From Morchella semilibera (Eukaryota; Ascomycota; Pezizomycetes; Pezizales; Morchellaceae), in contig WBVU01000004.1 in assembly GCA_009192285.1 (NCBI GenBank), positions 2,316,001 through 2,380,000 on the forward strand: a stretch of DNA of 64,000 bases, read 5' to 3'. This document shows positions 1,059 through 62,151 of the stretch, in pieces (position 1 is the first letter of the stretch; each line of letters begins with the position of its first letter). Position numbers and translations under genes: made by a program. The notes under the pieces are model-generated. The model ran no database searches. It was not told the origin of the DNA and worked only from the letters and a program-made list of their open reading frames with translations.

Positions 1059-3920
1059 ATTGGCGGCTCAGTAAAGGAAAGACTATCACCGGAACCGGAT
1101 TTGGTTGGCGGTTTGGGATGAACGAGTCGTCTGTCTCTTACTTTCTTGAGAGAGATAGTACAGGAGATCATGGAGGACCGATGGGGTTCTTATATCGATT
1201 CTCGGAGAACCTTTTTGACTAGCAGTGGGCAATAAATGAAGAGTCGAGGAAATTCGTATGGTTCATTACATCGTTAGCGCGATGGCCGTCTGGATAGGCC
1301 ATGCACTTGGGAAGTGAGGTTTCCTGGGGTACATGTTAATTGTTAATTTGCAGTTGGAGCCGTATGCAGGCATGGATGAGGAAGCACCTACCTGCCTGTG
1401 CAGCACAACAGAGAAACGCCGTCGGTACGTTCACACGTTTTTCCGTACATGTGTGGGGGATCTCCGAGCTAGCAAACAAGACGGTATCACTTTAAATTGG
1501 TGTTTAACACTGTCACCGTGGTAGAGCTAGAGTATGATACCCTTAGGCATTGCAGTACAATTAACGGAATGGTAGAAATGATATCTACAAGTCAGTGGTT
1601 GACTACATGTCTGTTAACTTTACATGCATAGGTGGTTTCTACAGCTAACGGACGGAAAGCTCCGAACATTCGTCCTTACACACAAAAAAAGGCTTATTTT
1701 CTTATTACACTTATTAAACCGTTTTCAACAAGCGGATCGACGACCTTCTCTTCTCCTCCCCCTGTGGATCATTAATAACGGTCTCTAGGCCCGAGTCTCC
1801 TGGTAACATGCAAGGATCATGGGTTTACTTTTTGCCGAGAGCGCCCAGAGCCAATAGGGGTCGAGTCAATTAATTCAAATGCCATCCCTGTACGCTACTA
1901 CTGCAGTACTCCTGCCCAGACCACAACCTGTACCTGCTTCAGATGGCGGTGTGGGGTGCGGGGAGATGCGTGCCTATATGCCAGATTGAAATTTGAAGAT
2001 GCGCTTGCGGAGTCTTTGGGTGATGGTCCAGCCGACGACTGGGTTTTCGAGAACATATTCCGTTAGCTTATCATCTAGATGAAGTTTTGGCTTGCTCGAG
2101 CACTCATGATAAAGCATTACAAAATCAGGTCTTTCTACTGGCCACAAAGATGGATACTTGAATCATAATTATTTGTTCATGATGCTATTCGTTCACTTGC
2201 AGATATGTTCTCTGGAATGTTGCATGTCGAAATAAAGATAAATACCCTTGGCGTGTGGTATATAAAGTAAATTTAATGTCATGTACTCTCTAACCCCTGT
2301 GTAATAATTAGCTCAATACCCCGAAGTTTTGGTTATCTACCCAGTACTATGTATGTCTCCTTCACTAGGACATAACTCTCTGGACGCGCAGATAACTCCC
2401 CCCTTAAAAGAAGGTTATTGGTTAGAACCGCATGAATTGTCTTCCTTTGACTGGTAACATGAGCGCCTGGTAACATTGAATGTACCACCAGCAAACCTCC
2501 CCCCCATTCCCCAAAACTTGGTTCTGTTTAGGCTGCCATTTCAGACCCGATTAATGCGGAGAATCCGCCTCAGTTTTCCGGGAGGTCGTGCCACGTGCGT
2601 TCATACCTTCGGGCCGTTAAGCAGTTCCACCATTTGACCCTAGCTAGAGGCGCCTCTTGTGTCATTGGGGTCGGAAGTTGCTCAAAGTCTCTCCCTCCTT
2701 GTGGTAACCAACGCTAGGTGTAGTTACCGGGCTAAATTTCGCCGAGATTGCACATGGTAGAGTTTTTCGCTATGCAAGAACCATGCCATCGTCCGTTCAT
2801 CCTAGAAAATATAATGGTAGACAGATATCATATAGGGGGGCGTAGTCCTTCAATCCCCCGGTGTGTGTGTCGTGGACATAAGGCCTTATAACGAAGAACC
2901 ATATATATAAGCTTACATTACTATAAATTGCTGTGCCCCAAGTTCGATGATCGTAAAATGACCAGTCGTAGTCGTCTGCAGCGATTTCAGAGTATGTTGT
3001 ATCCCCATAGTATGTCACGTCTAGATTTTTTGAGCGGATCGATGACCCTGACCATGAGGCAGATTCCCGGATGAGAAGGCGGACAATGAGGGTTCGTAGA
3101 AACAACGTCTGGCGTACTTATTTTGCAGAGTCTAGCCTACTTGAGAGGTGGTCGAGATTGATATCAAGCGCGGACAGGTGCTTATCTGAGCTCGTATTCG
3201 AGACAACACAATCAAGAGGGCGATGGATTTTCTCTCGCGCACTTGAAGAGTGCATAACGCAATATCACAGTACGCGTGTCGTTCAGAGTTTCTTTGCGGT
3301 ATTCCCTAAATTAAATAGTATTTGGAATTAACTCCTGTTGATCATGTTCAGCAAAGATAATATGCGTGTAACAACGCCTACTCTATATCTAAACGCATGT
3401 ACTTACATCATATACATTTACATAGTGCAATACGTTGCCCTGTGATAAGTACATTCATGTACGAGCATTTCCCGACCCTTGGCCGGAGTAGGAAGTGATG
3501 TAGCTTAAATAGCCCCTTTTAAGCAATTCAGACGGAGATTAAGGAGTTTTAGCTACGCCAGTTGAACAGAAACTCGGACAGAGGTTCTAGCTGTTTTAGC
3601 TAATAAGAGGTACAGGACTTTCTGTCTAAGTGCTTGACTTTCTGTCTAGCTCGTGTGACTAAAGCTCTCTATTGCAACAGGCCATAGTTCTAGAGACTTT
3701 CCCCACTCTTGTGGTACATCTGTTATGTGGTTTAGTTGACTCAAAATCTGTTGACCGAGTCAACACGGGTTGATAGAGGCCGGAAAGAAAAGAGGAGAAA
3801 AGAGGGGAAAAACCGCTTAGACTTGGCACGGACTTTATGTACACATGTGTATGTACAGTCTGTATACCTGCTACCTGCACATACATGTACTTACATGTGG
3901 TAATTGGTGAACATACATGT
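1059..3920. other. Gene-poor stretch
   Basis: I see only short, unrelated open frames with no recognisable domain. A partial copy of the fold-back element described below lies near 3665-3715. Nothing else can be supported. Confidence 0.5.
3665..3715 (+). repeat. Half copy of the fold-back element
   Basis: Begins with TTGCAACAGGCCATAGTTCT and continues through GACTTTCCCC to a terminal GTAC. This matches the loop and right arm of the complete copies at 3921-4010 and 4545-4639. The left arm is missing, so it is a truncated copy. Confidence 0.6.
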
Positions 3921-4010
3921 AGTACTACGGGGGTAGGGGAAAGTCTCCAGAACTGCGCCATGGTTGCAACAGGCCATAGTTCTGGGGGCTTTCCCCTAAC
4001 TCCATAGTAC
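3921..4010 (+). repeat. Fold-back (hairpin) MITE-like element, copy 1
   Basis: Arms of about 35 bp run from GTACTACGG..GGGGAAAGTCTCCAGAACT to AGTTCTGGGGGCTTTCCCC..CCATAGTAC and pair with a few mismatches. The loop contains CCATGGTTGCAACAGGCCAT. Small size, terminal palindromy and repetition suggest a non-autonomous foldback element. There is no coding capacity and I cannot assign a superfamily. Confidence 0.7.
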
Positions 4011-4397
4011 TTTATACATGTATGTACATGTATGTACTTATTCACAACATTCCCCGCCCTTTATCCCACATCAGTTGGCCAAAGGTAATTTTTGCAGCTG
4101 CAGCCTGGATGTAAAGGTTTATCGCCCCCATCTGAACGTGCCGACTTCCAGCATGAAGATTTCGGGGGGCTCTTAATATACGTACAGGAAATGGGTTGTA
4201 CAGCAATTCTCCTAGGCGCTATCTTGATCCCAAACTAAGTAAGCCACATGATGCGCTACATTTAGTATCAACTGGTTAACAATATTAGGAAAATTCTGTG
4301 TTTGAGCTTCGAGGACTAAGATTGGATGTAGTTCGGTTTTGAGTGCCAAAAATATAATGAAACCCATAAAATAAATTTGTTGCTCGAGGTGATATAC

Positions 4398-4402: not shown

Positions 4403-4413
4403 GTTATATTCTA

Positions 4414-4486
4414 AGCTCTGAGACCGGTTTGAACGATCGACCCTGCGATCTGCAATCGCATGCTCTAACCACTGAGCTACCAGAGC
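4414..4486 (-). tRNA. tRNA-Cys (GCA)
   Basis: A 73-nt cloverleaf folds cleanly. Acceptor GCTCTGG pairs with TCAGAGC (one G-T); D-arm is GCTC..GAGC; the anticodon stem TGCGA/TCGCA carries loop TTGCAGA, giving anticodon GCA; T-arm is GATCG-TTCAAAC-CGGTC. The discriminator base is T, the U73 identity base expected of tRNA-Cys. There is no intron. It sits between two fold-back elements of the same family. Confidence 0.93.
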
Positions 4487-4544: not shown

Positions 4545-4639
4545 GCACTACGGGGACAGGGGAAAGCCTCCAGAACTATATATGGCCTGTTGCAACCATG
4601 GCCACAGTTCTGGAGACTTTCCCCTACCACGTAGTACTA
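4545..4639 (-). repeat. Fold-back (hairpin) MITE-like element, copy 2
   Basis: Same family as 3921-4010 in opposite orientation. The arms GCACTACGGGGACAGGGG and CCCCTACCACGTAGTAC are paired, and the loop is the reverse complement (ATGGCCTGTTGCAACCATGG). Lies 59 bp upstream of the tRNA-Cys 5' end. Confidence 0.7.
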
Positions 4640-7600
4640 CAAATTTCAAATTATACTAGGTACACCCGCATGGAACGACGGCGGATGATGCCTAATGGTC
4701 ATGAGGGACTGTAGTCAATACTGTATTACAAACACCACCATCAGCAGGGTTACCGCCACTCTTGGAGTTTTAGTTAGATCTCTAGGCTAAGCAGTGAACT
4801 CTCCAAATAGCCTGCTGGGTACAATATCCCTTTTGTCTCATGGGCTGTTATTAGAACGTGTTATATTTTCAACTTTTGGGTTTAAATTTTGAGCTCTTGG
4901 CGCGGCGGGCTATCACACCAAAAACCAGTCGCCAAGAACTAAATATTTAGACCCAGAACTTATTGGCCAATACGCTCTATTTAAGTGTTATTTACTAAGG
5001 TACTAACATGACATATAATACCAAGTATTTCTCGAGCGTAAACCACAGGGTTGAAACGACTTGGCAAAGTTGGCATCTTTAACATTGTATGGGATATATT
5101 ATATTAAGCCACACTAGCAATTGGGGGCATTCACCACATTTATCCCCGCGAGGACCCCGATCCCCCCACGGCCTGAAATTAGCCATGTTTTATCATGGGT
5201 GATTCGAACCGGTAATTCGAACCGTGCAGAAGAGCTGTTCTATGAGTTTGTGGGTAGATCTTCCAAAGCGTACTACCTTGTATGGCCAATATTCTTTTTT
5301 CTCCTCACCCAGCTGATATGGGTTTGAAACTAACTGCTTTAGGCTTATGTAAAAACCAAACCACCAACTCTTTAGCTACATGTAGCTCTTAAAAAAAATG
5401 CCAATATTTGCAATTTGAAAGCTAACGTGATGCTCTTCTTGGCATAAATTGATGTTGTGTAGTAAGCATCACAAGACCAAGAAATATGATACGGAAAAAC
5501 CATAAGGAACCCTGGTCATAAATTTTCGTATACAGCAACTCTCTCCCCAGCCCCAGCCTTCATGGGCTCAGGCCCCTATATTGCCCGGCTCGGGCCGCGA
5601 TCTTTCAACAGTACATACTCGTGCTGCCGGATTGAAGTTGTTCGTACAGAAAAGGTAATTGCATGACCTGTTATTGGCCGCCAGACTACCCCAAACCAAC
5701 CACGCGGCTACCACTAGATCTGGGCTTTCCGTCTACTTTTATGTACACCTCGGGATACATATTTGTACACGTAAGTAGATATCATCTACCTACACAGGTT
5801 TCATCCTGTGTATCATTTAGGGTTATCGGTAGTTAAGATAAGCAGCTACCTTTACGTTCTAGAATATGGTAGGCTGTCCATGGAAGTTCAAGTCACGGAA
5901 AGATAGTCTAATGACACAAAGAGACGTTATTAGCAATGCCGGTTACGCACGTGTATGTGGGTGAAGTGCATTGAAACGGTGGTAGAATGCAATGCAACAT
6001 CGACGCCGAATAAGACAAGGATTTATCGTTCACTTTCTTTGTCAATTAACTCAAGTCCGAAATATATAACGATAAATCTCTTCTTTGTCTGAGTAGAAAA
6101 TGGTGCGAGCATAGGTTTGTTCAACCCAACCCCTAATCATGGTGTATCACTCGCATGTTTATGAGGATGCCCAGCTCTATGCCTAGCCGGCATGTTGCAT
6201 TGCCGGTGAAAAATATCTAGCTAGAGCTTCCTGACACATTCAGACGCTAGGGTAGGTGATATCTGGGGGGTACCAAGGATTAGGACGCGAACCTATCAAA
6301 AGTTAAATGCTTCAGAAACCATGCTGTGGGCAAAAAAAAAACTTGTATAAGTGCCGGCGCTATCTTGCAAAAAAGAAAGAACAATATGGAAGGATACATC
6401 GTTGTTGCAGGTATAAAACCTTCAGGGGAGAGCACATGGTTGGCAGCTACTCATTCGTCTGATCAGATCAAACAATGCATACAGACGGTCGCGGGCTGGA
6501 GATACCTGCGGGTTTCGTTCATATATCTGGTGGGTGGCAATGTAATGTGGCGAAAAAATAAAATACAATGTACTCTACAGCTTGGTTCAGGATAATAGGC
6601 TTCTTTTAAGCCACCCTCATATTCTATCCAGCGGAAATTCCGTACGCCACAGAAAATTACTTGCTAAATTTGTATTCTCGTCCTAAACCTAAAATCTGGC
6701 AAGTACACATCTGCATACCGCGTACCAATAACTTCCTTCACCATGAAAGAGTTCTTTTAGTCAGAACAGTATTAGTCCCTTTTGCCCCTCATGCTCTATC
6801 CCATCCCAATCAAAAGCAGAAAAGTTTTTTATGTATTGGTTTGAACGATCGATCACATTTCTCCGCCAAAAACCTGCTTGTAATCCTGACCGTCACATCC
6901 CTAAACCCACAAATTAAATAACCAGCTAGAATCCTACATACCCAAAATACCCCCACGTTTTACCATGGGTCAATGATCATAATTTTGATAATCCTCATAT
7001 TTATGGTTACTTTAACAGCGGTTTTAGCTTAAACATTACTAAAGTTGATATCTTAATTTACGTTTTAAGCTTATAAATTATCCTTTTTACCACCTTTCAT
7101 CTCAACATTTAAAGGAAAGAGATCTAGGTCTTTAGTATAACGGTTATGCACATCCATGAGTGATATTGTGGAGAGGACAAAGGCCATTTATGTGGATTAA
7201 AGGACCCCAGCAATTCTCCGGCTAGGTAGAATGGTGCGGGGCTAGATACATCTTGAAAAGAAACACGGCTGTAATGGTAATGTGGAAATAACGACGCATA
7301 TGATCGTTACATGTAAGAACATCGTGTTACACCACGCATGAATTCCTCTACTTACGATTGGTCCTATGGACATTACATACAGGTATATATTTAATTTGGG
7401 AAACGTGCACTTTATCACCCATGGCCATGTGCTTGGATAACCAGTATTAAAAGTTGCCGCAGGGCTGGGATTGCTGCCACTTAGACATCTGCATTCTCCT
7501 CGGAATCCCAAATATGGGTATAGAGTGCCGGTATGCCAGAAACAATGTAGACTGGGTGAGATACTCAAAAATACATATACAAGTACATGCTATCAGATCT

Positions 7601-10765: not shown

Positions 10766-12924
10766 CAATTTATACTTTTTTTCGCAGCCCAGACGCTTTC
10801 TGAATATTAGCCTGGTCAGGTCAATTTCATGTGCAGACCAGTGTAGTCCCTTCGATATAATCGGACCCAGCTCGAGCTAATACTTAGGAAACATCTTACT
10901 ACATACGATTCACATTGGATATATCGAAGTCTCGGCTAACCAGGGCTTATAACATGGCATGACGTGTCGTGTTGTAGATATAAAATTGCCGCCTGTTTTA
11001 TTACAGGATTAAAAACCCTTATAACTTTATTATTTAAATCAAATCAATAACTTTCCTTCATATGAAGTATCAATCAATCAATCAATAACTTTCCTTCACA
11101 TATTGTCACTCGTTATTTGAGTCAGCGACTTCAAAAACATACCTCTTGGCGCTCCTGAAAGCCCCTTCTGCCGCTTTGTTCTCTCGCCAACCGAGTAAGC
11201 CCTAATAGGAAGCTTCGCATTGGTACATAAATACATGTACATACATGCACTTGAAAGTCAGAAATCTACTGGTACATATCATAAGGGGGTAGGCTCATGT
11301 AAGTGCCTATCAATCTACCTATAGCGATAAGACACCCAACTTAATAGAACAGACAACGATGAGTAATCCCTTGATACTCGATCTACCGGCGAGGTAGATC
11401 TCCTCGATCGATCCAGGATCACGGTATCACGAATACTAAACAAAAAAAAAAAGCTAAGACAGTAGGTCTAGATACGATCATCAACCAATCCAAAGAGATT
11501 ACTAATTGATACGATCATCAAGTTCAACTTAAATGAAACTTTAGTAGCACCACAAGCCTTGCGTAAAAATTATGGATTTTGATCATTTCCTTTCATTCTG
11601 TCGTCTACATAGTTGCAAGATGTATCTGCCAGAACGTAATAAGGTACAGTTGTACCTCTTGCGTTCTATGCGCTCCTTTTAAAAAAATCCTTAATTCTAG
11701 GGATTATACGTCATCAAAGCTCCAGAAAGCTTGAGAACTGCCAAAGGAAGACGTACGGCTATATCAGATGTTGCAGAGACAGCGCAGAAAAGGGCCTTTT
11801 TCCAGCAGAATTTATTGATAGCTCTTCTTAGCTCTCTCTTCTCTACTCTGAAGCTCCCGTCGTGGGGAAGACCTAGAATATTCTCTATGGTGGACTCTTG
11901 GTATATGTTGTCTATAGTACTCCGGTACCTACGGCACCGCCTTCTCGCATTAACACACGTTTCAAAACATTTTGGGAACCCCATTGTTTCGATTGCCCCT
12001 CTTCTCCAAGGTTCTGCGTCACGCAAAGACCCCACTTCTGCCCTCTCTCTGCGACGGCACGGCCTGTCGGGACAGCAGCGAGAAGGTAACAAGAGATGGG
12101 CTAAGACTTACGATCTGGTCCATTCATGCATGCGATCACATCAAGAGAAAGGTAGGTACATGTAGCAGTTCGGTTCGTTTGGTCTGAATCCGGGGCTCAT
12201 CGGTTTTGGGTACGGTAGTTGGGCGGGGCATTAGTGGTTGGACTTGCGGAAGTAAAGCTGTTACGTTATGTATGATGTGGTAATACAGGGAACTACAAGA
12301 TTTATGCGCATGCACTAAAGGTAAGAATGAAGAACCCCCCCCCTTCCCTTCTGCGCACGCTAGACAAAAGAAAGACGCTCTCTAAAGATTGACAGAAAAG
12401 GAGAAAGAAAGAAAGAAGAGTGGGAGAAAGAGGGGGGGAAACTTGAATTAAGGAAAGGAAATAACAGAAGTACTCGTCAGAACATAAAATAATATTTACA
12501 AGTGAAACCTAACAAGTCAATAAGTGCTACGTTTTCACTCCGTCACAGAAGGCAATAGCGCTCCAAAACCTAAACACCTTCCCCTTCTTCGAGCCACCTC
12601 TAGCCTCGAAAGATGTACCAATAAAGACCCTGGGATCTCTCTCGTCTCTGCCCTTGAAATCAATAAACACGCTAATTCACTCATTTTCATTAGTCTCAAC
12701 CTTGATCACCAATAAGATTCGAAGTAAACCAATGTACCTTTCCGTCCCTAGGAAATCCACATGCCGCATTCTTCTTGAGCGGTCATAGTTCCGCTTGGAA
12801 CAAATCGTCGACCCGAAAAAGGTACCGAAAGTGATTTTTGCTTCCCTCATCTTACTATTCGCGCCGGTTATAGTTAGTTAAGGCCCTAACCACCACCACC
12901 ACCACATGTCTCACTTCTCACTTA
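10766..12924. other. Intergenic stretch with unassigned open frames
   Basis: Overlapping open frames on both strands at 11697-12165 (131 and 144 codons) match nothing I recognise and neither is favoured. A direct repeat of CAATCAATAACTTTCCTTCA occurs near 11042 and 11080. Otherwise nothing can be supported. Confidence 0.4.
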
Positions 12925-13407: not shown

Positions 13408-16400
13408 TATGGGCGACCTAAGTTGCTAATTAGTGGGATAGATATATAGCTAGTATGGTAGATCGTAGAGGTCAAACTAAGTTCTAGTAGAGCCCTAAGA
13501 GGTCTTTATAGAGGAGTCCTGGAAAAGGGACAAAGGTGAAGTTATAACCAAATCGCTATTTAGCTCCCCAAGTGCGAACTAGCAGAACCATAAGATATCC
13601 AAACCCCAACTGGATAGAAAGAAAAAAAAAGCGAAACAACCCAGTTTCTCCACTGAAGCCCGATCACCGAGCGCCCGCTAGCTACCGTCATCGAGCTAAT
13701 TACATATATGTAGCTGCTCATGGTGGAGGTGGTCGGTGCACGCGCACGCACGGCAATTTCCACAACAGCTAAACATAAGGGAATACATCCCTTTCCCCTC
13801 TGGTGACCTGTGGAATACATTGATATTCAGGGTTGCCTCGCATCATGTAAGTATATGTTTGTACATATATAGAGTACAATAACTTACTAATACACAGCTT
13901 CCTCAGGTGACACTGGAACGCCCGGGAGCCTGGTTACGGGAACTATATAACTTACAAGGTTTGGTTGATCAGTTGTTATCGCATGATGAGCCCTTGCTTC
14001 TGCCCATTTTGCCTTATCCTAATTTATTCTTATTTTGGTCATAGACCGGCTAGCTTCCGAGAGGATATAATAATAACCTAGGTTATTTTTTTTCTTTGAG
14101 GGGGGAAACTGTATTCTGACGCGTGATTGCTGCAGTTAAGAGAGAGAAAAGGGTATGTAGGACCTGTGAGGTCATGTTGGCACTGGCCATAAGATGCTCC
14201 GTGCGATCATCACAAACAGGGCTACAAAGGAGAACGAATTATTTGGTATTAGTAGCTGCAGTTGTAGTTTACTATTGGCCTGTTAGTAGTAAGTAAGGCA
14301 TCAGTTTATATCCTGTTTTCCTTTATAACCACCTACTATTTCGCTCCCGATCTAAAGTATTCTGACAAAAAAAAAAGTAGCCAACCCTAAAAGACCGTTA
14401 TCTCTCCGATTCAGGCGATGGTTCCAAATAAATCAAGATCTGTGTGAGAAACGGGATATGCGTCCTTGACAATAAATCCTATCGTAATATCCTATCATGA
14501 TGTTGTTGGCTGGCCGATCACTTTTTTCTTTCTGGTTGCCAAGAGTGTTTGAAAGGGGAGGATGGAAAGAGTAGGGGGCCACCTGACACGAGGGATCTTT
14601 GTACGAATCACGGAGTGGGATAGGGCATAGCTGGGGAACTATACCCCGCAATGGAGCTGCAGTGTGGCTGCCAGTTCTGGGTGCTTAATTACCAGAATGT
14701 AGATCTTCATAGATTAGTCGCACTTACAAAAGGGAGTATTAGCGGTGGTTGTGCATTGACCGGAGTGTTGAATATCGATATACCTATAGGTACTTGTGGT
14801 AGCTAGACTATCAGATAGCCTCACTGAGTGGAGTAGAGCTAGAGACCATGTGCTGCTGTGTAGCTACAAAAATGTATAATGTCAGATATAGTCCCATATT
14901 CCATAACACGATACCGTCCCATCTCTCGTTAAGCCAGTCAATCACAGTCGCCTGCCGTTGACGAATCACGTTCCGATTAATATGTCTACGACATTCCATC
15001 CACAGGATAACAGCAGAATCTAGACTTACGGGAAAGGTACTTTCCTCCTCGATCTTCAACAGCAGGGTAGTCTTATAAATTAGTTGCAGCAAATGTAGGC
15101 AGCCGTAGCCGCGATAATCGCGAATTATTCAGGGTTGGATTTTCGGCCAGCATGACTAAGGAATAAGTTAACTGAATAGTGCCCCGCCAGCGCCAGCTCA
15201 AACGCGCGGATAGTGTATGAAATGCCCATCGATGACCAGATATCAGCTCCGACCAAAATATGCACCGGCCAGCTAAGTTGGTCAATCTCACTTACCTTAG
15301 TTGTGTATGCATCTCACGGCATGACGCAGAAGGGGATTAACAAGTTTTGGGCCAGTTTGGCGGTCTCGGGAGGATCCGAGCTTGTTTGGGGCTGTAGGGG
15401 TTTGGAGATCCCCTGTAAGATAGAGGAACAAGGACATCCGAGCTTTGCTGTATAGGGTTTAAGTTTTTTTTTTTTTTTTCTCTCTCTCTCTCTCTCTTTT
15501 TTTTTTTTACTTTTACTTTTTTTTTCCCTTCAGACGTTGAATATCAAACGGTACACTAGTACTAGTGCCCGCGTGCTTGTTCCATACTGAGTTTGACCAA
15601 GTACATACATACATGTACTTAAGATTAATCAAATCTCGAGCACATCAGGGGGGGAAGTTAAAAACATCCAAGCAGCAGCCGAAAGCTCGGGGACTTTGGT
15701 GAGCCGAACTCTAACTACAGCACCCTCCCAAAAGTTGTAATTCTTACTTACCTGTTAGATCACATGCCATACAATAAAAAGTAGCTAAAAGTTGATACTT
15801 ACCGTGCCCTTTTGTCTCGAATGATATCTCGGATTGTCTAACCCCACCCTTTACAATACCAGTAGGTACCCACCCCACCACCCCACCACCATGACATCCA
15901 TTTTTTTTTTTCATACCGGCTGTCATTCCGGTGGCCTAAGGCTTTTCCCGCATCCATGTCGAATATCCGGTGTACTAGTAAGTTTACCAAACCTACCCCC
16001 GACCATCATCTCTGGGACATTCATCCCACCAGTAAACTTGTAGAGTTCACAAAGAGGAGGGTGCCCCGAGAGAGACTGTCTCTTGCTGAGAACGAAGATG
16101 GGAGACCCTATGGTGGCACAGTAATTTTTGCAGTCAATGCGGACGGCTAGGGTAGATCTTATGTACCCTACCAATCGCTTCTTAAAAAAAAAAAAAGAGG
16201 CCCGACCAAGCGGTGGGAGTTGAGGTCGGGAAAGCTATCGGTGTATTGTGGGGTTGAAAAGAAAGCTAGTGTTTACCTAGAGCTGAGCGTTGCACGTTGA
16301 CTGTGCTGGATAGGAATATACCCCACCACTACATGTCACTAACGCATTGCGAAGTAACCTACTAGTAGCCATTACAAAAACTCGCAATTCCTAATTCACC

Positions 16401-17201
16401 AACCAACCAAAGCCTCTCTATACCATACAGCAGGGCCACGTACCATTACGGTTCGATCTCCCTCACAGACCTTCCCCTAATATTCAGGTGTTGACTGAGG
16501 GTGTAAGGCCCAGTGATAGCGATGGGTGTGTGATCGATGGTAAAGTGACAATCAATGGGGGGGCTTATGATTCACTCAGATCCGCTAGGCGTGCGTATAT
16601 AATTATTAGTCCCAGATTTACTCAGATAGGTATCCCGCGATCGAAGCCTGTAATTGTGTTTCTTCCTGGTATTCCAATAACAGCCTTGACAATCTAGGAC
16701 CTTAGAGTTTCTAATTTTATAATATATACATACATGTATCTATCAGTCGAGGTCCTGCATTTGTTCTTTCTTTTTCTCCCCTCCTTGCCTTCCGTTCTTC
16801 TTCTTTGCACCGTTAAATGTCAATTGACCAGAACATAGGCGTTAGGTTTTCCCAATATTTACTCATTTTATTTCTAGGTATAGAATGTTGCGTGCAGTCA
16901 TAGACTACATGTACTCAGGGTCTGCTATTGAGTATAATCAGCGCGCAAGCGATCCAACTACAACTTCATTCAATCCTTTTGAGGTAATTTCTTGAAGGAA
17001 ACTATTGATCATTAATAATGAACCAAGGGAGAAAGAGGCGCTATGGATAAGGCGGAATCAGAGAGACTAAAACCCCCGGGTTGTAAAATACTAGCGTTAC
17101 AAATCTCAAACCACGCAGATAGAATTCGATCCTACCCCATTCCACACCTAGGAACGGAGGACAGAGAAACAAGGAAGTAGCTAAAAGTACAATTGAAAGC
17201 A
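13408..17201. other. Intergenic stretch
   Basis: No recognisable gene. Holds poly-T/(TC)n tracts near 15464-15508 and several TACATGTA palindromes. Open frames at 14811-15291 on the minus strand have no recognisable domain. The last part is the 3' flank of HRD1. Confidence 0.45.
15464..15508. repeat. Poly-T / (TC)n microsatellite
   Basis: About 16 T, then about nine TC units, then about 12 T. A simple pyrimidine tract with no coding sense. Confidence 0.9.
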
Positions 17202-20625: not shown

Positions 20626-22774
20626 CTTGAATTAACTTGAACGAGTCCGGCGGGGGACTCTGACGTTGTAGTTGAAAGCCCTTCAAATGGAGATGATAGG
20701 AAGATATATCTGGAGACCAGAATTACAATTGACGCTTGGGACTTTACGCCGTTGCTCGGCTATGGGTAGAAAAAGAAAGGAAGAAAGAAGCTTTTGGATG
20801 TCCACTGAATTCGCGTTTCAACTTGAGCACGAGAGAACACGGTGTCGCTGACCTACATAGCCATTACATAATGTGGGATTTGCATGTGGCACGTGCGCAA
20901 AGCAAAATTGCCCATCCTAGGATACATGTAATCTTGAGCCAAACACAAAATATACCCTGAATTGTAATTTATTGAAAATAAACGCACCTAATCGCGGGAT
21001 TGATCAGCGACATTATAGGTTCCGTCCTATAATAACCCGAGTGATGGGCTATGAGGCCCGGGCCACCAGGGTTAATCCCGAGCCCTCGGCTGATGAATGA
21101 ATTCACCCGCCGATTTATAAATATAAGTATATGTATGTGTGCCTCATATAAGCAAGTCTGTGCATCTCACCCAAGAAATCTACTCACTACCACCGGTCTT
21201 TAACCTTTGTGGAATGACGGACCCTCTCCACCCCGTGAAGCCATAAGATAAGTTCAGCTCTTTCGTTCATCTGGCCAACTATATAAGGGCTTCCGCCCGA
21301 CTGGAACCTCTGGACCGTCAATCCTGACTCTATATTCATCAATGAAGTGGCCTCAGTCTGACCGCAGGTCTGTATGGAAGTATAAGTATCGTTTTTCAAC
21401 AAAAGCTAGTCGATCATTCAGGCTTTTTGGATCTGCTTCTTAGGTCTTGAAGAAGGAAGATATTATAGTATTTATTATAGAGAAGACGTCGTTTGTATGA
21501 TTATACCCCGGTAGTTTTGGTACAGAAGCTGACAAACTGATATAGAAGGCGATTCACATGTCGAATTAATTCATGTAGTCCCTACTGCCACTATTGATCC
21601 CAGCTAGGTTAGAAGCTATATAACCTCAGTGCTACTGCTAGCTCTCATTGGCCCTCCTAAAGCAGGCTTAATCTAATTGGTGCCCCGCCTAGCCCAACCT
21701 GCTCGAGGCGAGTTCTGTTCTGAACTTTGGGACTGCTTTCCGAACCTGGGGTCGGGCCTTCCAATTTTATCAATCTTATCAGATTGGATTTGTTGAAGCA
21801 ACTACTAACCATTGATAGTTAAGGTTTTCAAACTCAGATCAAGCAGCTTTTCAGGGGACGGCTAAATAGCAAACTACCAGCTCACAGGTGCTCTAGTTAT
21901 CGGGGGTTTCTAACCACTCCCCTAGGTCTATTACTGGTGAAGGTGAAGAAGTCATGTGGGTGAGTGGAGGGAAAATCTCGTCTGCGGTGACAACTAACTC
22001 GGATGGTTCCCGATCTTCCACGAGGCAGGGTTCAAGCGGCTCTTGGAGGGGGAGTGGGAGAAAAAAAAAACGAAAAAAAAAAATACATATCCCGCCAATA
22101 ACGGCACTCCAGTGGGCAACCTCATTATTGAACAAAAGGACAAATTGATATTAGATATTCCAAACAGCAGAGGACGTTTTCAAAACCATTTGCGCAAATT
22201 CTGTTTTCTGATGTCCTCGAATCGAGCAAGATTAGTGAGCTTATCCAACGTAGATCCAATCTCAGCCGCGAACTGTCCCCCTCTTAAGCTCATCTTTACA
22301 CCCATCCCACGCTATAGAATATTTTTCTTTTGGGCCAGAAACAAACGCAAGACTTCCCGTCCCCATTCCACTTTTAGCGTGGGATTTTAGAAGCTCCCCA
22401 TCCACTAATAAACGAAGCCCCCGGATTCTGTTTAACCACCCCCGGGATTTCACCCCCTCCGTCATTTCCCTCCCCGCTCTCTAGACTCCTACATACCTAC
22501 TCCCCCTCTTCCTTCTTTCATTCCTCAATCGCTCTCCATCTTAGGCTCCCCTTCGTTTGGCTTCAGTACCTGTATTTTGGGATTGTTAGTAGTGACACAG
22601 TCTCCTCTGCTGGTGTGACTTCGACACACACTACCCACAATTCTTTCCTTTTTTTTTTTGAACCCCTTACAAGAGCCATCGGCAATAACCGTCCCTTGCA
22701 GCTCTGCAGATAGTCCCACAACACCAACTAGTTCGACCCGAGAACCCTCAATTTTCAACTGCTTGTCTTCAGAA
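20626..22774. other. Divergent spacer between HRD1 and AGC1
   Basis: Contains both promoters. Open frames here are short and unrecognisable. A homopolymer-rich stretch lies near 22060-22085 and a T/C-rich leader precedes the AGC1 start. Confidence 0.5.
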
Positions 22775-25050: not shown

Positions 25051-26383
25051 TTCCTTTACCCAGCTGGGGTCAAAAAAATTGAAAAATAAGAGAGAGATAA
25101 CTAATTCCCCTCTTTATATCCTTCCTTTATATATTTTCTTTTAGGAGCTAAGCAATTCCATACATCTTCTTAGATTTAGATCATGTATACGTCTTTAGAA
25201 ACAATTATATTTCTTTAGAGGTAGTTTTTTTTTTTACATGAGTATAGAGGCCCATACACAAGACCATCTCATTTTTCTTTGTGTATAGATTTTTTTCGCT
25301 GTTTTTTCGCTGCTTTTTTTTTTTTACGAGTTATAAGCGTGTGGAGTTTGAAGTTCAATATCTGTGGTTACATGTAGTTAGGGATTTTGAAAGGGTCTTT
25401 TGGGTTTTATAAGTTTCTGGATGTAGCCTCACTCTTCTTTTTTGAGGTTGAACTGGGTTTGCATAAACAGCACTATAGTACTAGAGAATATTAGACACCT
25501 GTACAAGGACCTAGCATTTAAAGATCTATCAACACCCCATGCATGTAGTTCACTCAAGCTTGATGCCAGAGCCTTGTATGTTTGAGCATGCGTACGTGTA
25601 TTTTGCAAATCTATCTGTTTAGTTTGTCTCTGAATAAACATAAAAATTGGCGAAGCCAGATAGGTGATAGGAAATCAATGATACAAATCGCACGACACCA
25701 TTAAGGAAGGTTAAAACCGGGCCAACGTATACATTTAGTCTACTGCCTGTGAGAGTCTGATGGGAAGAGTAAAAAAAAAAAATAATACCAGTGCAATGTA
25801 TATAGCTAGACCGAAAGCTACATGTAATCTTGTATACCTGTAATAAACGGGGGAAATGATCAAACCATCAAGTAAGTAAGAAGTGAAGAAAAGGGGTGGG
25901 GAAGAAAGGAAAATAGGTGGGCATGTATGCGTGCTTGCTTATAACAACTTAAGAGAACAGATCCGCAAAATATGTGGGGGAAAAAACAAAAAAACATGGG
26001 CGAGCGCCCTGTCCATCCAATCCATTTCCTTCGCTCAGTTCATTCCCCATCATGCATAACATATCATCCAAAACCCTGAAATAATAATTATCGGATATAA
26101 GAAATTAAAAAACAATAAGAAATTAACCCGTAAAAGATCGCCCCGACCCACCCAGCAGGTTACAGCCAGGCCCCACTACAGCTCTATCACGCTCCCAACC
26201 ATCGCCAGGATAGAAACAAGAGCCCCAGCAGGAGCCTTTTTCCTTTTTCCTTTTCTTCCTCTAGAGGTGGTATATGTTAAATTTTCTTTGGATACCAATC
26301 TAGACTAAGGCGCGGGTCAAGAAGACGGATGTGATACCGGCGGTAGGGCTCTTGTCTTCGACTCGCAATCAGGAAATCATAAC
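25051..26383. other. 3' flank of AGC1
   Basis: AT-rich with long T tracts near 25225 and 25315, plus TACATGTA at 25369 and 25819. No gene seen. Confidence 0.5.
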
Positions 26384-35300: not shown

Positions 35301-36721
35301 TATGTAGACCGTTTTACCACCGGTGGTGAAAGTAATACCATCATTTATACAAATGACGCTTTTTTATAGAAGCACAGATCTTTTGGCTATAACGCCAGTA
35401 TGAGTCCAGCCGTCCACCAGTAGAAGGCCTTCACTACGGGTGAGAGTTAATGATTGAACACCCACTAATGAATGGGGTTAGCGCAGCATAAGGACTGGGG
35501 CTCAGTGTTTATACTGGCACAAGGACTGAAATTCAGTCCTTGGGCCGCGTTGGTAAATAACTTCTATACTATCGTTGGTAAATTAAAGTTACATGTACTT
35601 TCGACACATCCCCACACTGCAACCGCTCGACAGCTAAACCCTCATAGAGAATACCCAACCCCAACGAACGGGCACAGCACTACCCAAAAAGAAAAGACTA
35701 CCCATCCCCACTCATCCCGACCTGTTTGCGGGTCGACTCGGAAGCCTTCAGATAAGTAAGGCCCCGGCCTAAGACGCTAATAGAAAAGCAAGGGTTACCG
35801 CACCACATACCTGCGTACTGTACTGCGCTGTATGTACTCTACTGGCTACTACATACATGTACCCTCAAGGGCCACCGGGTCCAGACAACCGAGGGCAGCT
35901 CTAGAGCGTGCTAGCTGCATACATGTACCGTATGTACACACGGGTCTAAACCGAGAAGACGCCGGCCTCACCCCGTAGTGCCTCGACCCCCCCCCCTCCC
36001 CGCTCACCAACGCCAAAGGATCCCCCCTTGTTTACATCCCACAAGGGCCCAGATGGTGTGTGTGTGGTCTGGTGTATTGTAACTACATGTACCGCTCTCC
36101 ATGATGTAGATGTAGGTGTAGGGCGCCCCGGACGGGTTGCTGCATGTGCTGTCACTCGGCGCGCGGGTCCGTTCTATTGTGATACATACCAGAGGTTCTA
36201 TTCCAAGTGCATGTATTCAAGCATTCTCTTCTCTTTCCTATATCTGTATGTGCGTGTATTCTCTTCTTCCTCCCTTGGTCCAGTTCCTCCAGACATACGA
36301 TGTGTGATCATTACAACCCTAACCCTGACTCCACAGGGCCAATCATAAATCGAACCTTGTTTCCGAGGACAAGGAACCAGAGCACAATGTTAAGGGAACA
36401 ATATCAAGACTTTTTTTATTTTATTTTCGTCTTCCGAGAGGCGACCTCCCCCCCTCCCCAGGAAGGGGGGAGGATATTAGAACTTGGGAAAGGCAATTCT
36501 ATGTAATACAGCAATTTTGAATGGGGCATCTTCGACTTTTGAGCTTCAAGGAGTTATATTTTCCGCAGAAGCTGCAGGTTTGGGATCTAGAACTATCGGT
36601 ATAAGCCCTGAAGATTTCAAGCAGTGAGTAGAGACATCGAGTCAGCCAGTCAGTCAGTCAGCGAGTTACGTATTATAACATTCGATCGGTATACGAATTT
36701 CCAAAAGTTACAAAAGAAATC
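32309..36721. other. Gene-poor stretch with a tRNA-like relic
   Basis: No protein gene recognised. Holds a tRNA-derived element (34102-34218), four TACATGTA copies between 35590 and 36091, and a two-unit telomere-like CCCTAACCCTGA near 36318. The last 100 bp are the STE6-like gene leader. Confidence 0.45.
34102..34218 (+). other. tRNA-Ser-like relic or SINE head
   Basis: Starts GGCTGTGGGCTAGTAGTGG (degenerate A box). It has CCGCGC before a perfect B box GGTTCGATCCC (34182-34192) in a strong T-stem, then eight T at 34211-34218. Acceptor and anticodon stems do not close, so it is not a working tRNA as read. Resemblance to tRNA-Ser is from memory. Confidence 0.4.
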
Positions 36722-42301: not shown

Positions 42302-43163
42302 CGAATCTGGTGATTGAGCCTTGGGTGAGACCAGGGTAAATGAACGCTTCAAGCAATCCCGTCAACCGGGTAACCCGTCAGCAATTTTTGATTTGGTAAG
42401 CGAGTGACAGCTGGTGCATGGACATAATACATGTATGCGCGCCCTGACTGAGTGAAGTCCTCTATATAGATCTAATGATCCGAATACGGCCGCTATTGAG
42501 TACTATAACAAAGGGTTGACTTAGCACCTTTTTACATGGCACGCCAGAGTACGTATAGCATATATTGATATATCATATAAACTACATGTATACTACATGT
42601 ATTTCGAATTGAGGTCACTTTAAGGCCCAATGCACGTTTTATATAATTATACATCCTTACGTGTACGCACAAAAAGTGTTCTCTATCCCACAGGGCTCTA
42701 TATACTGATATGCTAATTCTTTTTCTAACCCAATTATGAGTCCCAAGATACGAAGAGTTCACTTATCTTGATTCTCTACATTTGCCAACCAGTCTATGAT
42801 GTGAGCGGTACAGAAATGAAATTGGAGCTTAACGTGTTTCACGGGAAAGCAATCATCACCGGGTAAGCAATCAACCATGACAACAGGGCTTTAAAAATTT
42901 CAGATTTCGGGGCTGGAGCGAATCAGGTATCCAGAAACACCCTTTAGATTTCTTTTGACTATTTTAGATGATATCTGCTAAGGAGGATGGCTGTCATAAT
43001 ACATAATTTCTTCTCCTTGAAAGTACCCCCACCACACTACCCTAGGTAAATATCACAAAAGGCTTCATCAACGGGACCCGGTGGCAACCGCCCCCCCGGC
43101 GAAACACGCCATCTACCGGACCCAGCCCGCCGCTGCTGGAAGTGACCATTACATACATGTATA
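42302..43163. other. Intergenic stretch
   Basis: PPTase promoter side, then AT-rich DNA with TACATGTA at 42428, 42583, 42594 and 43154. No gene seen. Confidence 0.5.
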
Positions 43164-43339
43164 TAGTCGCAACTCGATATGCCGGATTGCTAAGATTCTA
43201 AGGATTTCGTACGGGATAGTAGAACTGGGATAGCAAATTGATTTTAATTTTGCAGTAAAAAAATAAAAATCCCAGAGGATTTCGTACGGGACAGCAAGAG
43301 GTCCGTAGTATTGAGATCCGGCATATCGAGTTGCGACTG
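43164..43339. mobile_element. Pogo/Fot1-like MITE (176 bp)
   Basis: Terminal inverted repeats of about 24 bp: TAGTCGCAACTCGATATGCC at the left and GGCATATCGAGTTGCGACTG at the right. Flanked by TA on both sides (43162-43163 and 43340-43341), the duplication made by Tc1/mariner-pogo transposases. The internal phrase GGATTTCGTACGGGA occurs twice. No coding capacity. Confidence 0.85.
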
Positions 43340-44307
43340 TACTACTATAGCCTACGAGGGATGAAGTTGGAACGGCCAGGGTATCATAACTGCTGTAGCT
43401 AATTCGACACGGTTTCGCGGAAGAACAGACCTCCTCAGGCTCGTGAGATGCAAAGTCTCTTGTTATTCGTCAGCGCAGCTGCAAATCTAAGACACCTCAG
43501 GCAACCAGGCCCAGGCTCGTCACTGCCGCCAGCAACCAGGCTCGTCGCCTCAGGCTCGACGTCACTGTCGCCAGCAGCCAGGCTCGTCGGCTACATTTCC
43601 CAACCTGATAAGTACGTGGTAATATTAAGCGGCGCCTCAACTAGTTTTTTAGGCAGCAGTTTGACTTCAATCCCCCGCCGAGCGCAACACCCAATTCCAG
43701 GCAAGTATCTCTTGGCTGCCATTTTTCTCACACTCAGTAGGTGGTGGTGGGGAATGAGGGTATATACATGTACATATATATACTTACTGAAAATTCCGGT
43801 GCTAGTTTCCTGCGTGGTTCGGGGCCCAGTGGATGTAATATTTATTTACATTGGTACATGTACTTTACATATATGTGATTCCGAATTAAAGGTACTGGGC
43901 AGGGAGTTACATGTAGTTCGCCCGAAATCCAGAAAACAGAGTAATAGATTAAAACAACTTGAACTTCCGAAGGGGGTGATATGTACATAATTTAAAGCGA
44001 AACCTAATAGTGAAAATAGGTACGTTACAGAGTAAAGTACAAGTGAAGCACATATGTAGTAGAAGCGCCTAATGTCGTCGGTGACTTGATGGTTTGAATG
44101 TGCTGTGCTTAAGTGCGGCGGCCAGGGGAGAAAATAAAATATATAACCTAGAGCTCCCCCCCGCTGCCTTTCAATCTCTTTTGCGCCTTACTTCCAACCT
44201 ACACACTTACCAGCTGACTGCCAAGCTCACCCTGCTTTCTTTTTTGAGACATTGCAGCACTGCAAGACGCCTATCACATTTTAGATAACCCAGCATAACC
44301 AATCAAC
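43340..44307. other. Intergenic stretch with CAGGCTCGTC repeats
   Basis: Between 43436 and 43600 the phrase CAGGCTCG recurs about five times at irregular spacing. An open frame across it is probably not a gene. TACATGTA at 43765, 43855 and 43908. Confidence 0.45.
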
Positions 44308-49974: not shown

Positions 49975-51322
49975 GCTCCACATTCCACTGTATCTACATT
50001 CCTCGATACAGAAAAGAGTATCTTTAAACGCAGCCTTATTTCTAAAAAAATAAAAATAAAAAAGAGTCCGGAGTTTTTTGTTTTTATTGTTTTATTTTTT
50101 TTCTTTCTATTTTTACTCTCCTAGCTACATGTATCTGTACTTTTTCTCCCTTTCATCAAAGAATAATTGCCTCGCGGCAGCAGACCTGTGTTTTTTTTTT
50201 ATTGTGAATGCTTGATTGAGGAGTCGGAGGGGGTGGGGTAGACTCTGTTTGATCAATTGAATGTTTGCCTGCTTTGTTCTCCACCCCCGGTAGATACATG
50301 TGTATGTACTTACGTATATGATGATGCCTCTTCACCGGCACTGCCAAATGCCTGAGCAAGAGTCCTTTTTAATCTCATTCCCTCTGCACGACGATTCCTG
50401 TTTATCAGAGTGGAGTGGTGGGTGGAATGGGTTGTTGTAGATTTCTGGATGGGTACCGCACCCCTTATCGGGATTCGTGCATCCACATCGCGGGTGACAT
50501 TATGTGATTCTCTTAATTCCCACCTCAACCGCCACTGCGCCACCCCGTCCATCCGTTTATCCACAGTCGGAGAGATAAGTAGAGGATGGTAAGGTTTCTT
50601 GTATGTATTGTAGACGTTAATACAGCACATGGGAGAAGATCTCCTCATCCTCGGGAGGTTTCTGGGGTGTAGCAAAGCAGGCATGCTAATTAGTAAATAC
50701 CTTCCTTAGACGCTGACCACATCCAACCAACCAGGCAAGAGAAAGGAAAGGGTTTGCTGGCATCCCACAGCCCTTCTTCTCTTCCTTCTCTCCATTTACA
50801 TCATGGTAAACCAATAGAAACGCTTCCGCCCCCGCGTGCCCAATTTCAGCTCGGCTGAACCCTGAGGGGGTTTGTGTGTTTTCCTCGGATCTGTGCTTGG
50901 TGTTGAGGATGCCATTCGATGTCTCTCATGTAGGGACAGCGGAGGTTTTCTTTCTTCCTCGATTCCAGATGCCAAACTCAGGCAACTGGGAAGATGGGGA
51001 GAGTGAATGTGGAAGGTGGAGAAGAGGAGAAGAGGAGAAGAGGAGGGTATGCTGTGCGCGTGTGTCTCTTCTCTCTGTTAGAATAAATAATTAATTGTGG
51101 GACATCGCCAGTTCGTTCTTTTCATTATTACCATACAAGACATTAAAACTCTTTCTCACCATCTATCTATCCCCCCCCCCCTTCTCTCTATCTCTCTCCA
51201 TCTCTCTCCATCTATCTTCCCCCCCCCCCCTCTCTCCATCAAGAATTCCACCAAGAATTCCATCTTCAAAACATCGAGAAAGAGATCGATTGATTCGATT
51301 CTACTCTATCCGATATCTCGCG
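49975..51322. other. Intergenic stretch
   Basis: RPB6 3' flank with A/T tracts, TACATGTA at 50126, then the pyrimidine-rich leader of the next gene (C tracts near 51171 and 51222). A 124-codon minus-strand frame at 50310-50684 has no recognisable domain. Confidence 0.5.
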
Positions 51323-56521: not shown

Positions 56522-57648
<1,127 letters not shown>

Positions 57649-60585: not shown

Positions 60586-62151
60586 CGGAAAGGTGGCTTT
60601 ACTATTGGTCGAGTAATGATATTGAGAGGGAGCTTAGGGTCAACCGCTGTATTCGAGCAGCGGTGGACCTGGTGGTTGGGAGTGGTGAAGCCGTCGGAGG
60701 CGCGTGTTTGTGAGCTGGTGGAGATCCACGGTGGACCGAGATGAGGTATCTAGATGAGATGAGATGCGGGGGGGAGGGGGACGGCGGCAGCGAAAGCTCG
60801 AGTAGTAGCCTCAGTAATTAATGAATGGGTGATGTTAGTACTAGTACTGTACGTATTTGAAAGTTAGAAGTTAGAGGTGAGGTTGTCGATAAGGTAGGTA
60901 GTTGTCTCAGTTGAGTGGGCGGAGTGGGGGTGGCCTCTGCCTGACTGAACAGATGTGTGAGATATGAGTGGCTGTTGAAGACTGACAGTCTGAATGGACA
61001 AAATAAAAGGCACAAAGCACCTGTCAGTTACTATTCACCTCGTGAAAAACTTCCCTTCGCAGCCAAAAGCTTTAATACAGTGAATGCCGTTTATCTATCT
61101 ATATAACAAGCCTTGCGCAGGGGGAAAATTCAAGAGCGACTGCGGGCAGCGGGCAGTCACAGCAGCAACGTTTGTGACTGATGATGACCACACAAAAAGT
61201 AATATGCCGTAACAAGTGGAGGGAAAGGGTGATAAGTGATCAGGAACCGAATATGTTTCCAGCAAAAGAACCCCACTGGTCTCTCCACAAATGGAGCACG
61301 CGAGATGATTTGGATTGGCGGGACTAGACAGGACAAGCAGGTCAAGAGAAGATGATCTTCCGTGACTGTCCGTCCACATGCAGTCAGTCGTAATTACAAG
61401 AATTCAGGGAAATCCGAAATTCTACTCTATCTGAGAGGGCCGGGGTACAAATACACGTAATAATAAAAAATAAAAACTCCCCTGCTATTTTGCCAAGTGA
61501 CACCTATGGCCAGATAAGGCTTGGATCCTCGATAGATTAAGCATCTTGATAAGACATGTTCATTGTTAACTGTACCTACATGTACCCACCTACAGTACGA
61601 CCCTCTGCCCACACGTACTCTAAAGTAGAGTGTGTACCTATAAAATTTAGTACTTGTACATATACATGTAATGATACATGTATTCTTCCATCTCTGCACA
61701 ACAAGTACGTAGGCTGGACCGTACTAGGTAATAGGTACATGTAGGATGTACTTTATATAGATTTAATTATACTACATGAATTTCGATACCTCAAATTCAT
61801 TGTATATAAAGTCTGTTACACTGTGTGACTACTACCACATCAACTACGAGGTTATTCGACAGGAGACGCTTCTTTAATGTCTAGTAGTGTGACCCAAAAG
61901 ACCATCAACTCTTGGCGCCAAGTTCGTATCTTTCAGGGTTGATTGACAGCGGAACCTAAATTCTAACTTCAACTCTTAAACTCAAACAACTCCTCTGGCT
62001 GTGAGAACCTACCCTACCTCACATCGTTCATAGATCCTTACATGTATTACTCGTGGACGATTAGAGCCTAATTACCGCCTTAATTAATGCCAACTCGTAG
62101 CACCAAATTTCCAATACATGTAGTAAGAACATCATCAGCAAACTCAACTTA
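60586..62151. other. Intergenic stretch rich in TACATGTA
   Basis: ICE2-like promoter, then gene-free DNA with TACATGTA at 61577, 61663, 61675, 61736, 62039 and 62115. Confidence 0.5.

Follow-up and report, generated by a model that had tools for sequence, protein, structure and literature searches.

Copies of the palindrome in the window and in the genome

The window, i.e. the whole 64-kb stretch of Morchella semilibera DNA analysed here, harbors 36 exact copies of the 8-letter palindrome TACATGTA, two MITE E copies and one MITE B copy. All 36 start positions reported in the earlier note were recovered, and no further copy is present. In the following list every TACATGTA is an exact match without strand, and hyphens mark element boundaries.

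3882..3889, TACATGTA
3914..3921, TACATGTA, left edge of a MITE E copy
3922..4011, plus strand, MITE E copy (palindromic MITE) from the MITE E alignment, plain TA at the hot site
4015..4022, TACATGTA
4025..4032, TACATGTA, 10 bp from 4015 (preferred spacing)
4547..4641, minus strand, second MITE E copy from the MITE E alignment, 4-bp TATA insertion at the hot TA (~4577-4580)
5377..5384, TACATGTA
7308..7315, TACATGTA
11232..11239, TACATGTA
12157..12164, TACATGTA
15610..15617, TACATGTA
16731..16738, TACATGTA
16906..16913, TACATGTA
20923..20930, TACATGTA
25369..25376, TACATGTA
25819..25826, TACATGTA
29216..29223, TACATGTA
29297..29304, TACATGTA
29589..29596, TACATGTA
35590..35597, TACATGTA
35854..35861, TACATGTA
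35920..35927, TACATGTA
36084..36091, TACATGTA
42428..42435, TACATGTA
42583..42590, TACATGTA
42594..42601, TACATGTA
43154..43161, TACATGTA, abuts the edge of a MITE B copy
43162..43343, no strand assigned, MITE B copy (family ends TA-CAGTCGC...GCGACTG-TA)
43765..43772, TACATGTA
43855..43862, TACATGTA
43908..43915, TACATGTA
50126..50133, TACATGTA
56537..56544, TACATGTA
61577..61584, TACATGTA
61663..61670, TACATGTA
61675..61682, TACATGTA
61736..61743, TACATGTA
62039..62046, TACATGTA
62115..62122, TACATGTA

Among all 256 eight-base palindromes TACATGTA ranks first in the window, followed by ATATATAT (16 copies), TATATATA (15) and ATGTACAT (8). Its expectation amounts to 0.77 copies under an order-1 and 2.52 under an order-3 Markov model; the A+T content, given in the earlier note as about 55%, is 52.3% according to the base counts of the window. 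An order-6 estimate reaches 32.95, but the underlying 7-mers themselves mostly come from TACATGTA.

The genome of 56.76 Mb contains 22,206 copies, whereas the reversed word ATGTACAT occurs 3,723 times. The total for TACATGTA is somewhat inflated because C9/C10, C12/C13 and C21/C22 are pairs of contigs with almost the same sequence in the parts compared (up to ~6 Mb of doubled sequence, summed over contigs). The same pairs were considered as haplotypes for an allelic comparison, which is uninformative because those compared differ almost solely by short indels. In a 264-kb sample, 128 copies were counted versus 8.0 expected (order-3 Markov), and of all octamers counted 15 times or more TACATGTA has the top z value. 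Removal of the duplicate contigs L010 and L013 left 120 copies in 244 kb; L029 and L032 were left out of the repeat comparisons. Since the excess is genome-wide and persists over a third-order Markov background, the objection foreseen in the earlier note, a count close to that background, does not apply. The second one, a single repeat family, fails as well: the copies share no flanking sequence beyond a TA at +3,+4, so that one family does not explain the enrichment.

All 36 window copies lie outside coding sequence, as had been claimed, and so do all 120 sample copies (65.7 of the 244 kb being coding); the calls stem from a self-trained HMM without benchmark, which probably misses genes. By synonymous-codon shuffling just 0.37 copies would be expected in the called coding sequence, and the 0/120 observed there therefore documents a lack of enrichment rather than a proven depletion. 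Outside genes, repeat-like DNA (13.8 kb) contains four copies and the remaining non-coding DNA (164.5 kb) 116, repeats being recognised solely against sampled DNA of the genome. None was found in 46 copies of the interspersed repeat families A, B and C (8.9 kb) or inside the 37 MITE D copies. Over all A-E copies about 12 would be expected at the sample rate per TA, a number that a young age of these copies would lower by an unquantified amount, and one was found. Six of 474 tandem arrays contain TACATGTA; in the array L019 it could represent an insertion into the repeat unit, a case that is ambiguous, and the repeat-embedded copy in L017 is a substitution rather than an insertion.

One explanation for these data is a process like that behind the cyanobacterial HIP1, in which a mutational bias, through biased repair, gene conversion or otherwise, makes or keeps the word where it is nearly present, with neither transposon nor function involved. 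The exactness of the word, its genome-wide occurrence and its unique flanks conform with this proposal, and the related TA/GTA/TAC words enriched nearby could be its by-products. Nevertheless we consider it improbable, given that a blind process should act at synonymous positions too (0/120 in coding sequence), that the 46 copies of repeats A-C are devoid of the word, and that its one clear birth, in L128 (see below), is an insertion and not a substitution.

Flanks, spacing and gene context

A TA recurs two bases outside TACATGTA on both sides, resulting in the symmetric extension TANNTACATGTANNTA. The half-flanks of the sample (n=240) show T at +3 in 144/240 and A at +4 in 125/240, versus C at +1 in 50/240 and A at +2 in 43/240. 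The bases between TACATGTA and the flanking TA are variable, and a simple-repeat origin is therefore not the whole story. A resemblance to Pumilio/PUF RNA sites (TGTANNTA) was dropped because the flank is strand-symmetric (8,250 vs 8,087 on the two strands) and position +2 is without A preference. The word TGTANNTACA occurs 6,112 times versus 5,992 for a control that itself has letters in common with TACATGTA. Close pairs with gaps of 0-30 number 2,666, and 606 of them have a gap of exactly 2 (10-bp spacing) versus ~86 if all gaps were equal; this spacing is also seen in 19 of the first 100 listed pairs. TACA/TGTA, GTAC and TACATA are enriched within 120 bp of TACATGTA. Words with one mismatch amount to 163 in non-coding DNA versus 90-109 expected, and they are mostly transitions distributed over all positions, which supports a neutral decay of the word.

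The exact palindrome, its symmetric extension, the clustering at one helical turn, the enrichment of related words nearby and the absence from repeats A-C are all in accordance with a palindromic site of an abundant homodimeric DNA-binding protein, selected in non-coding DNA and occupied by neighboring dimers on the same face of the helix. The same octamer has been proposed as a regulatory motif in Phytophthora and, as told in PMC3520976, is a preferred site of the Irx homeodomain (Iroquois, TALE). However, a strong concentration beside genes is lacking: based on 62 predicted genes only, few copies lie closer than 250 bp to a predicted start or stop, there is a broad maximum 0.5-1.75 kb upstream, and the density is about equal in DNA without flanking predicted genes. 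No candidate protein was found. A search for BEN domains gave 0 matches, but its control was likewise at 0 anywhere, so that this result is uninformative. The sole Homeobox_KN gene matched (L021), a fungal TALE gene, differs in that it reads WFINARRR in our reading; Irx proteins have an alanine in place of its isoleucine. Moreover, L128 acquired its copy by a clean insertion at a TA where variant insertions recur (see below), and the 10-bp spacing is also expected from the flanking TA preference if the copies are excision footprints. A binding site is the main alternative to excision footprints, although we assign it a rather low probability.

Birth of a copy by insertion at a TA

One clear case is provided by MITE E, which is represented by 33 aligned copies. 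L128 reads GGCCA-TACATGTA-GTTCTGG at a hot TA. At this site 29/33 copies are without insertion, 28 of them with a single TA and one (L125) with TG. The TACATGTA of L128 is a clean 6-bp insertion at the TA, with 20/20 matching flanking bases in pairwise alignments, and it represents a gain because the six closest relatives (2.7-4.6% apart) lack it. The gain of a TA between unchanged flanks that characterises a Tc1/mariner footprint was accordingly found in one exact case. Three further copies carry insertions at the same TA, namely TATG, TATA and TACAATATG, the last being composed of TACA+ATA+TG before TA; for all four insertion-bearing copies the closest relative is a copy without insertion.

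Among the 330 insertion events scanned in repeats, L128 is the only exact gain of TACATGTA. Insertions between a TA and a duplicated TA account for 35/330 events, most of them with other words and several resembling deletions in single copies. Two are TA-CA-TA in L017 (one alignment, 20/20 flanking bases) and TA-CTG-TA in the MITE D copy L106 (33 alignments). A spectrum of related footprints from variable end joining may be represented by the variants at one MITE E TA, L017 and L106. In the sample, the 3-nt scars TACAGTA/TACTGTA occur at expectation, and the filler forms TACA-N(1, 2, 3 or 5)-TGTA are not commoner than other spacings. The one-sided form TACATA/TATGTA (291 vs 138 expected) has the largest ratio of all TANNTA words; its support for footprints is weak because other TANNTA words also reach 1.3-1.9 times their expectation. 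TACTAGTA, the predicted scar of elements with CT...AG ends such as MITE D, was counted just 12 times versus 3.9 expected, and it lies near TACATGTA in 3/12 cases, no more than GTA-rich controls.

Elements that insert at TA

MITE B has both family ends in 11 copies, with varied flanks beyond the TA. Copies without two readable ends were left out of the target profiles (9/20 for MITE B, 5/37 for MITE D and 23/33 for MITE E). At least 69 DDE_3 transposase matches were detected genome-wide, pogo-type DDE_1 being outside the search. Ten DDE_3 loci were inspected, three of which are without a readable terminal repeat; the ends of six of the remaining seven can be read as TA-CA...TG-TA, with TA at both edges as a condition of the scan. 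In our reading G and C stand outside the TA on 12/12 sides of these six elements, resulting in GTAC edges that are also found in MITE E. Their exact boundary is ambiguous because all are edged by GTAC, and for the six DDE_3 elements alone the alternative may be a 4-bp GTAC duplication with AG...CT ends.

MITE D target sites have T at +3 in 37/64 and A at +4 in 27/64, the autonomous elements T at +3 in 11/14 and C at +1 in 13/14. The preference for T at +3 agrees with the flanks of TACATGTA, whereas that for C at +1 does not.

Several TA-elements overlap or adjoin the palindrome. The flanks of MITE D contain 18 copies in 4,543 bp (at 14/37 elements) and those of MITE E 15 in 4,709 bp (at 10/33), seven of which share the edge TA of the element; in the autonomous element L145 the right TA coincides with the first TA of a TACATGTA. 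These observations fit a preferred target of TA-transposons whose abundance has some other cause, one of the roles suggested in the earlier note. Target choice alone cannot generate 22,000 copies, and the flanks of MITE B are poor in the word (one in 4,019 bp), which makes this explanation very improbable. The suggested transposon link stands mainly in another form, that of a footprint-like 6-bp insertion; overall, the interpretation of the earlier note is partly supported.

Excision footprints as the proposed source

We propose, with a probability of roughly 0.5, that TACATGTA mostly originates as the footprint of excised IS630/Tc1/mariner-type transposons that insert at TA and have CA...TG ends, a proposal derived from sequence comparison. 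The inserted bases may correspond to the terminal bases of candidate TA-elements (MITE B and, if they end at the TA, the six DDE_3 elements). An element would enter and duplicate a TA, with a preference for sites that have T at +3 and A at +4 on each side. The transposase would then cut about 2 nt inside each end, leaving CA and TG together with two TAs, and fill-in and joining would produce TA-CA-TG-TA, a net insertion of 6 bp. The conversion of a TA into TACATGTA with intact flanks is exemplified by L128. Scars would subsequently decay by point mutation, mainly transitions, as supported by the one-mismatch words, and their TAs, now located before CAT, probably serve further TA-elements as landing sites, which would partly explain the clusters. 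The lack of enrichment in exons presumably reflects that an inserted element would disrupt the gene.

Several observations argue against excision footprints. The spectrum is too clean, with the 3-nt and filler classes at background; at least 69 DDE_3 matches face 22,206 scars; and the motif is without the elements' C at +1. Furthermore, there is a single exact gain, none in the A-C copies, none inside MITE D, and a low count of TACTAGTA. A more far-reaching version, which we regard as doubtful, would have end joining turn CA...TG excisions nearly always into one perfect palindrome, while the scars, by placing CAT next to a TA as the TA-elements prefer, recruit insertions and breed new scars at 6- and 10-bp spacings. 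Some of these palindromes may then become binding sites.

If most copies are indeed footprints, the most over-represented palindrome of this genome would be a fossil record of cut-and-paste transposition. Each TACATGTA would mark a past insertion that is invisible to ordinary transposon annotation, thereby providing a direct count of excisions. Short abundant palindromes from motif discovery, including published regulatory motifs of the same sequence, could then be scars, and this may also apply to TACATGTA motifs abundant in other eukaryotes (e.g. Phytophthora motif-1).

Comparison with known systems

The footprint of the Sleeping Beauty type is TAC(A/T)GTA. Tc1/mariner footprints share with TACATGTA the TA duplication with terminal CA and TG, a net increase by a few bases at the TA, and the target T at +3. 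They differ in that one exact form occurs here about 22,000 times, that the sample shows 3-nt and filler forms at background level only, and that the source element is represented by candidates only. According to published work, taCATGta is a rare Tc1 footprint in C. elegans (PMC3520976), footprints generally measure 2-4 bp in Tc1/mariner, 0-3 bp in ZB and 0-4 bp in a pogo element (PMC7913693, PMC9976928), and 86 of 94 excisions counted genome-wide in rice were not "perfect" (PMC4423477).

In Phytophthora infestans, motif-1 / M93 is the identical octamer, and its great abundance in upstream DNA (motif-1 in 12,070 upstream regions of three Phytophthora species) resembles the situation in Morchella; its regulatory role was inferred from expression data, and the authors of PMC3520976 weighed an origin from Tc1 footprints and set it aside, as far as the excerpts of these sources document. 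The sister word M94 (TACCGGTA) is unenriched in the Morchella sample (1 vs 2.0 expected).

HIP1 is common inside genes. The analogy drawn "in spirit" with this word (GCGATCGC) holds for number and exactness, both being single palindromic octamers iterated across a genome far above Markov expectation; it does not extend to coding DNA, in which TACATGTA is unenriched, or to the birth of a copy by insertion at a TA. HIP1 has been linked to a methyltransferase (PMC4390886).

Among the matches listed, the literature on TACATGTA and on genome-wide mariner footprints contained no massed TACATGTA scars, that on Morchella nothing on such a word, and no work joining TACATGTA with "excision footprint" was found. 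Many literature matches to TACATGTA look like primers; in the accessible text of PMC8081344 it occurs solely in a primer.

Abundance and placement of the palindrome

The palindrome TACATGTA is real and occurs genome-wide. All 36 positions listed for the window in the earlier note proved exact and the list complete, and the excess claimed there is confirmed: the 36 copies stand against 0.77 (order-1) or 2.52 (order-3) expected, and TACATGTA ranks first among all 256 octamer palindromes of the window. The genome (56.76 Mb, 23 contigs), of which the window covers C20:2316001-2380000, contains 22,206 copies versus 3,723 of the reversed word, these whole-genome counts of TACATGTA being inflated because several contig pairs are near-identical; TACATGTANNTA occurs 8,250 times on one strand and 8,087 times on the other. 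The contig pairs C9/C10, C12/C13 and the first megabase or more of C21/C22 (genome G000) differ almost only by short indels where compared (stretches L009/L010, L012/L013, L028/L029, L031/L032) and look like the same DNA assembled twice. A sample of 264 kb, composed of the window and twenty 10-kb stretches, yielded 128 copies versus 8.0 expected, the top z of all octamers that occur 15 or more times. Omission of L010 and L013, duplicates of L009 and L012 with almost exclusively short indels as differences, left 120 copies in 244 kb.

None of these 120 copies lies in the 65.7 kb of the 244-kb sample that a self-trained HMM called as coding; a synonymous shuffle expects 0.37 copies there, thus placing coding DNA at background. 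The density is roughly uniform across the non-coding DNA of the sample, and copies are scarce less than 250 bp from the ends of the 62 predicted genes. The flanking sequences are unique except for the bases at +3 and +4, with T in 144/240 and A in 125/240 half-flanks of both sides. One-mismatch versions are in excess (163 versus 90-109 expected), mostly through transitions across all four half-site positions, and GTA/TAC-rich words are enriched within 120 bp of TACATGTA. That the copies are produced by a process like the one behind HIP1, the cyanobacterial highly iterated palindrome, appears improbable to us. A second enriched word, GTAGGTAC/GTACCTAC (27 and 19 copies versus 3.7 and 3.1 expected), has unique flanks and often adjoins TACATGTA.

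Window about 12151, 28746 and 29593, also stretches L015 and L019: GTAGGTAC/GTACCTAC sites

Birth of copies within repeats

Repeat copies with and without TACATGTA were compared. The palindrome is absent from 15, 20 and 11 copies of families A, B and C, respectively (8.9 kb). The MITE E set comprises 33 copies, two of them in the window.

Window 42830-43057: repeat of family A, whose copies are about 250 bp long and 78-86% identical
Window 4414-4486, minus strand: tRNA gene, lying between two MITE E copies

The usual MITE E site, ...GGCCA-TA-GTTCTGG..., is free of insertions in 29/33 copies; its TA has become TACATGTA in copy L128, TATGTA in L135, TATATA in the second window copy and TACAATATGTA in L134. 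L128 differs by 2.7-4.6% from its six nearest relatives, all of which lack the insertion, and the bases flanking it are 20/20 identical in pairwise alignments. All four changed copies are nearest to an insertion-free copy in a weakly supported tree based on 90 bases. A scan of repeats retrieved 330 insertion events, 35 of them shaped as a word plus TA added behind a TA. Among the words are CATG (L128), CA/TG (L135, L017), CAATATG (L134), TA (second MITE E window copy) and, in copy L106 of MITE D, CTG; the others of these 35 events represent different words, some of them plain single-copy deletions. The MITE E comparison and the scan show that at least one TACATGTA was born as a 6-bp insertion at a TA, with related insertions recurring.

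Candidate transposons and landing sites

A duplicated TA with CA and TG retained is the footprint expected from a Tc1/mariner element whose ends are CA...TG. In C. elegans, Tc1 rarely leaves the footprint taCATGta (PMC3520976), and footprints of 0-4 bp are given for related elements in PMC7913693 and PMC9976928. Judged from its sequence, MITE B is a TA-element with CA...TG ends: 11 copies with both ends read TA-CAGTCG...CGACTG-TA or near, in varied flanks. The genome harbors at least 69 transposase matches in a search covering DDE_3, and several have open frames of about 340-430 codons. Ten loci were inspected, the scan requiring TA at both edges, and terminal repeats are visible in seven; six are readable as CA...TG (L023, L025, L141, L142, L144, L145) and one as CT...AG (L140). 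Because G and C border the TA on 12/12 sides of these six, their ends may alternatively be AG...CT, flanked by a duplication of the 4 bp GTAC.

TA-elements also insert at TACATGTA.

L019:9110-9248 and L074-L109: 37 copies of MITE D, a TA-MITE of about 139 bp with the form TA-CTCGGGGCAGGT...ACCTGCCCCGAG-TA; those outside L019 match the L019 copy at 85-99% identity

The MITE D family is young, and by eye its terminal repeat is similar to that of the autonomous element L025. Its 37 copies have 18 TACATGTA in 4,543 bp of flanks; those of MITE E have 15 in 4,709 bp, seven sharing the element-edge TA, and a TACATGTA begins with the right TA of the autonomous element L145. We regard it as very improbable that TACATGTA is only such a landing site and owes its abundance to another cause. 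The target sites prefer C at +1, strongly in autonomous elements (13/14) and MITE E (19/20) but more weakly in MITE D (26/64), and have T at +3 in 37/64 (MITE D) and 11/14 (autonomous elements). The inner side of TACATGTA (CATG) matches the preference for C, whereas the outer side departs from it (C in 50/240), so that today's families are not clearly the source of most scars.

Origin of the palindrome

We assign a probability of roughly 0.5 to an origin of TACATGTA as footprints, i.e., scars left at TA by excised transposons. Several observations speak against it. The exact birth was seen only once, and families A-E contain one TACATGTA in 1,246 TAs versus about 12 expected at the sample rate, a number that age corrections would reduce. 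Scars of 3 nt lack enrichment in the sample, TACA-N(k)-TGTA is no more frequent at k = 1, 2, 3 and 5 than at other k, and the scar count is far above the transposase remnants found. One-sided TACATA/TATGTA is doubled (291 versus 138 expected), but other TANNTA words are raised as well. For rice, PMC4423477 gives perfect excisions as only 8/94.

These objections keep alive the rival reading of TACATGTA as a protein-binding site, which we consider unlikely, if still a serious candidate. It is favored by the spacing of the copies, which cluster, since 606 of the 2,666 pairs with gaps of 0-30 have a gap of exactly 2, corresponding to 10 bp, and by a precedent from Phytophthora (PMC3520976, PMC3597505).

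Other features of the window and genome

Window 33914-34236: dispersed repeat with the tRNA-like box GGTTCGATCCCC
Window 54124-56486: Indigoidine_A (pseudouridine-5'-phosphate glycosidase-like) domain
Window 63014-63970, at the window end: ORF with a weak DUF4939 (Gag-like) match, resembling part of stretch L004
L021:1501-1593: Homeobox_KN (TALE) match, the sole one in the genome search

The first repeat is presumably a tRNA-derived SINE, to go by its box, and the terminal ORF is probably a retroelement fragment. Behind the Indigoidine_A domain, in the same orientation, lies coding sequence that by eye resembles a sugar kinase, and both perhaps form a fused gene. Further genes encode a synoviolin-like E3 ligase, an EF-hand mitochondrial carrier, an ABC transporter and a 4'-phosphopantetheinyl transferase, a set in keeping with a filamentous ascomycete. 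The Homeobox_KN match reads WFINARRR by eye and is split by an intron.
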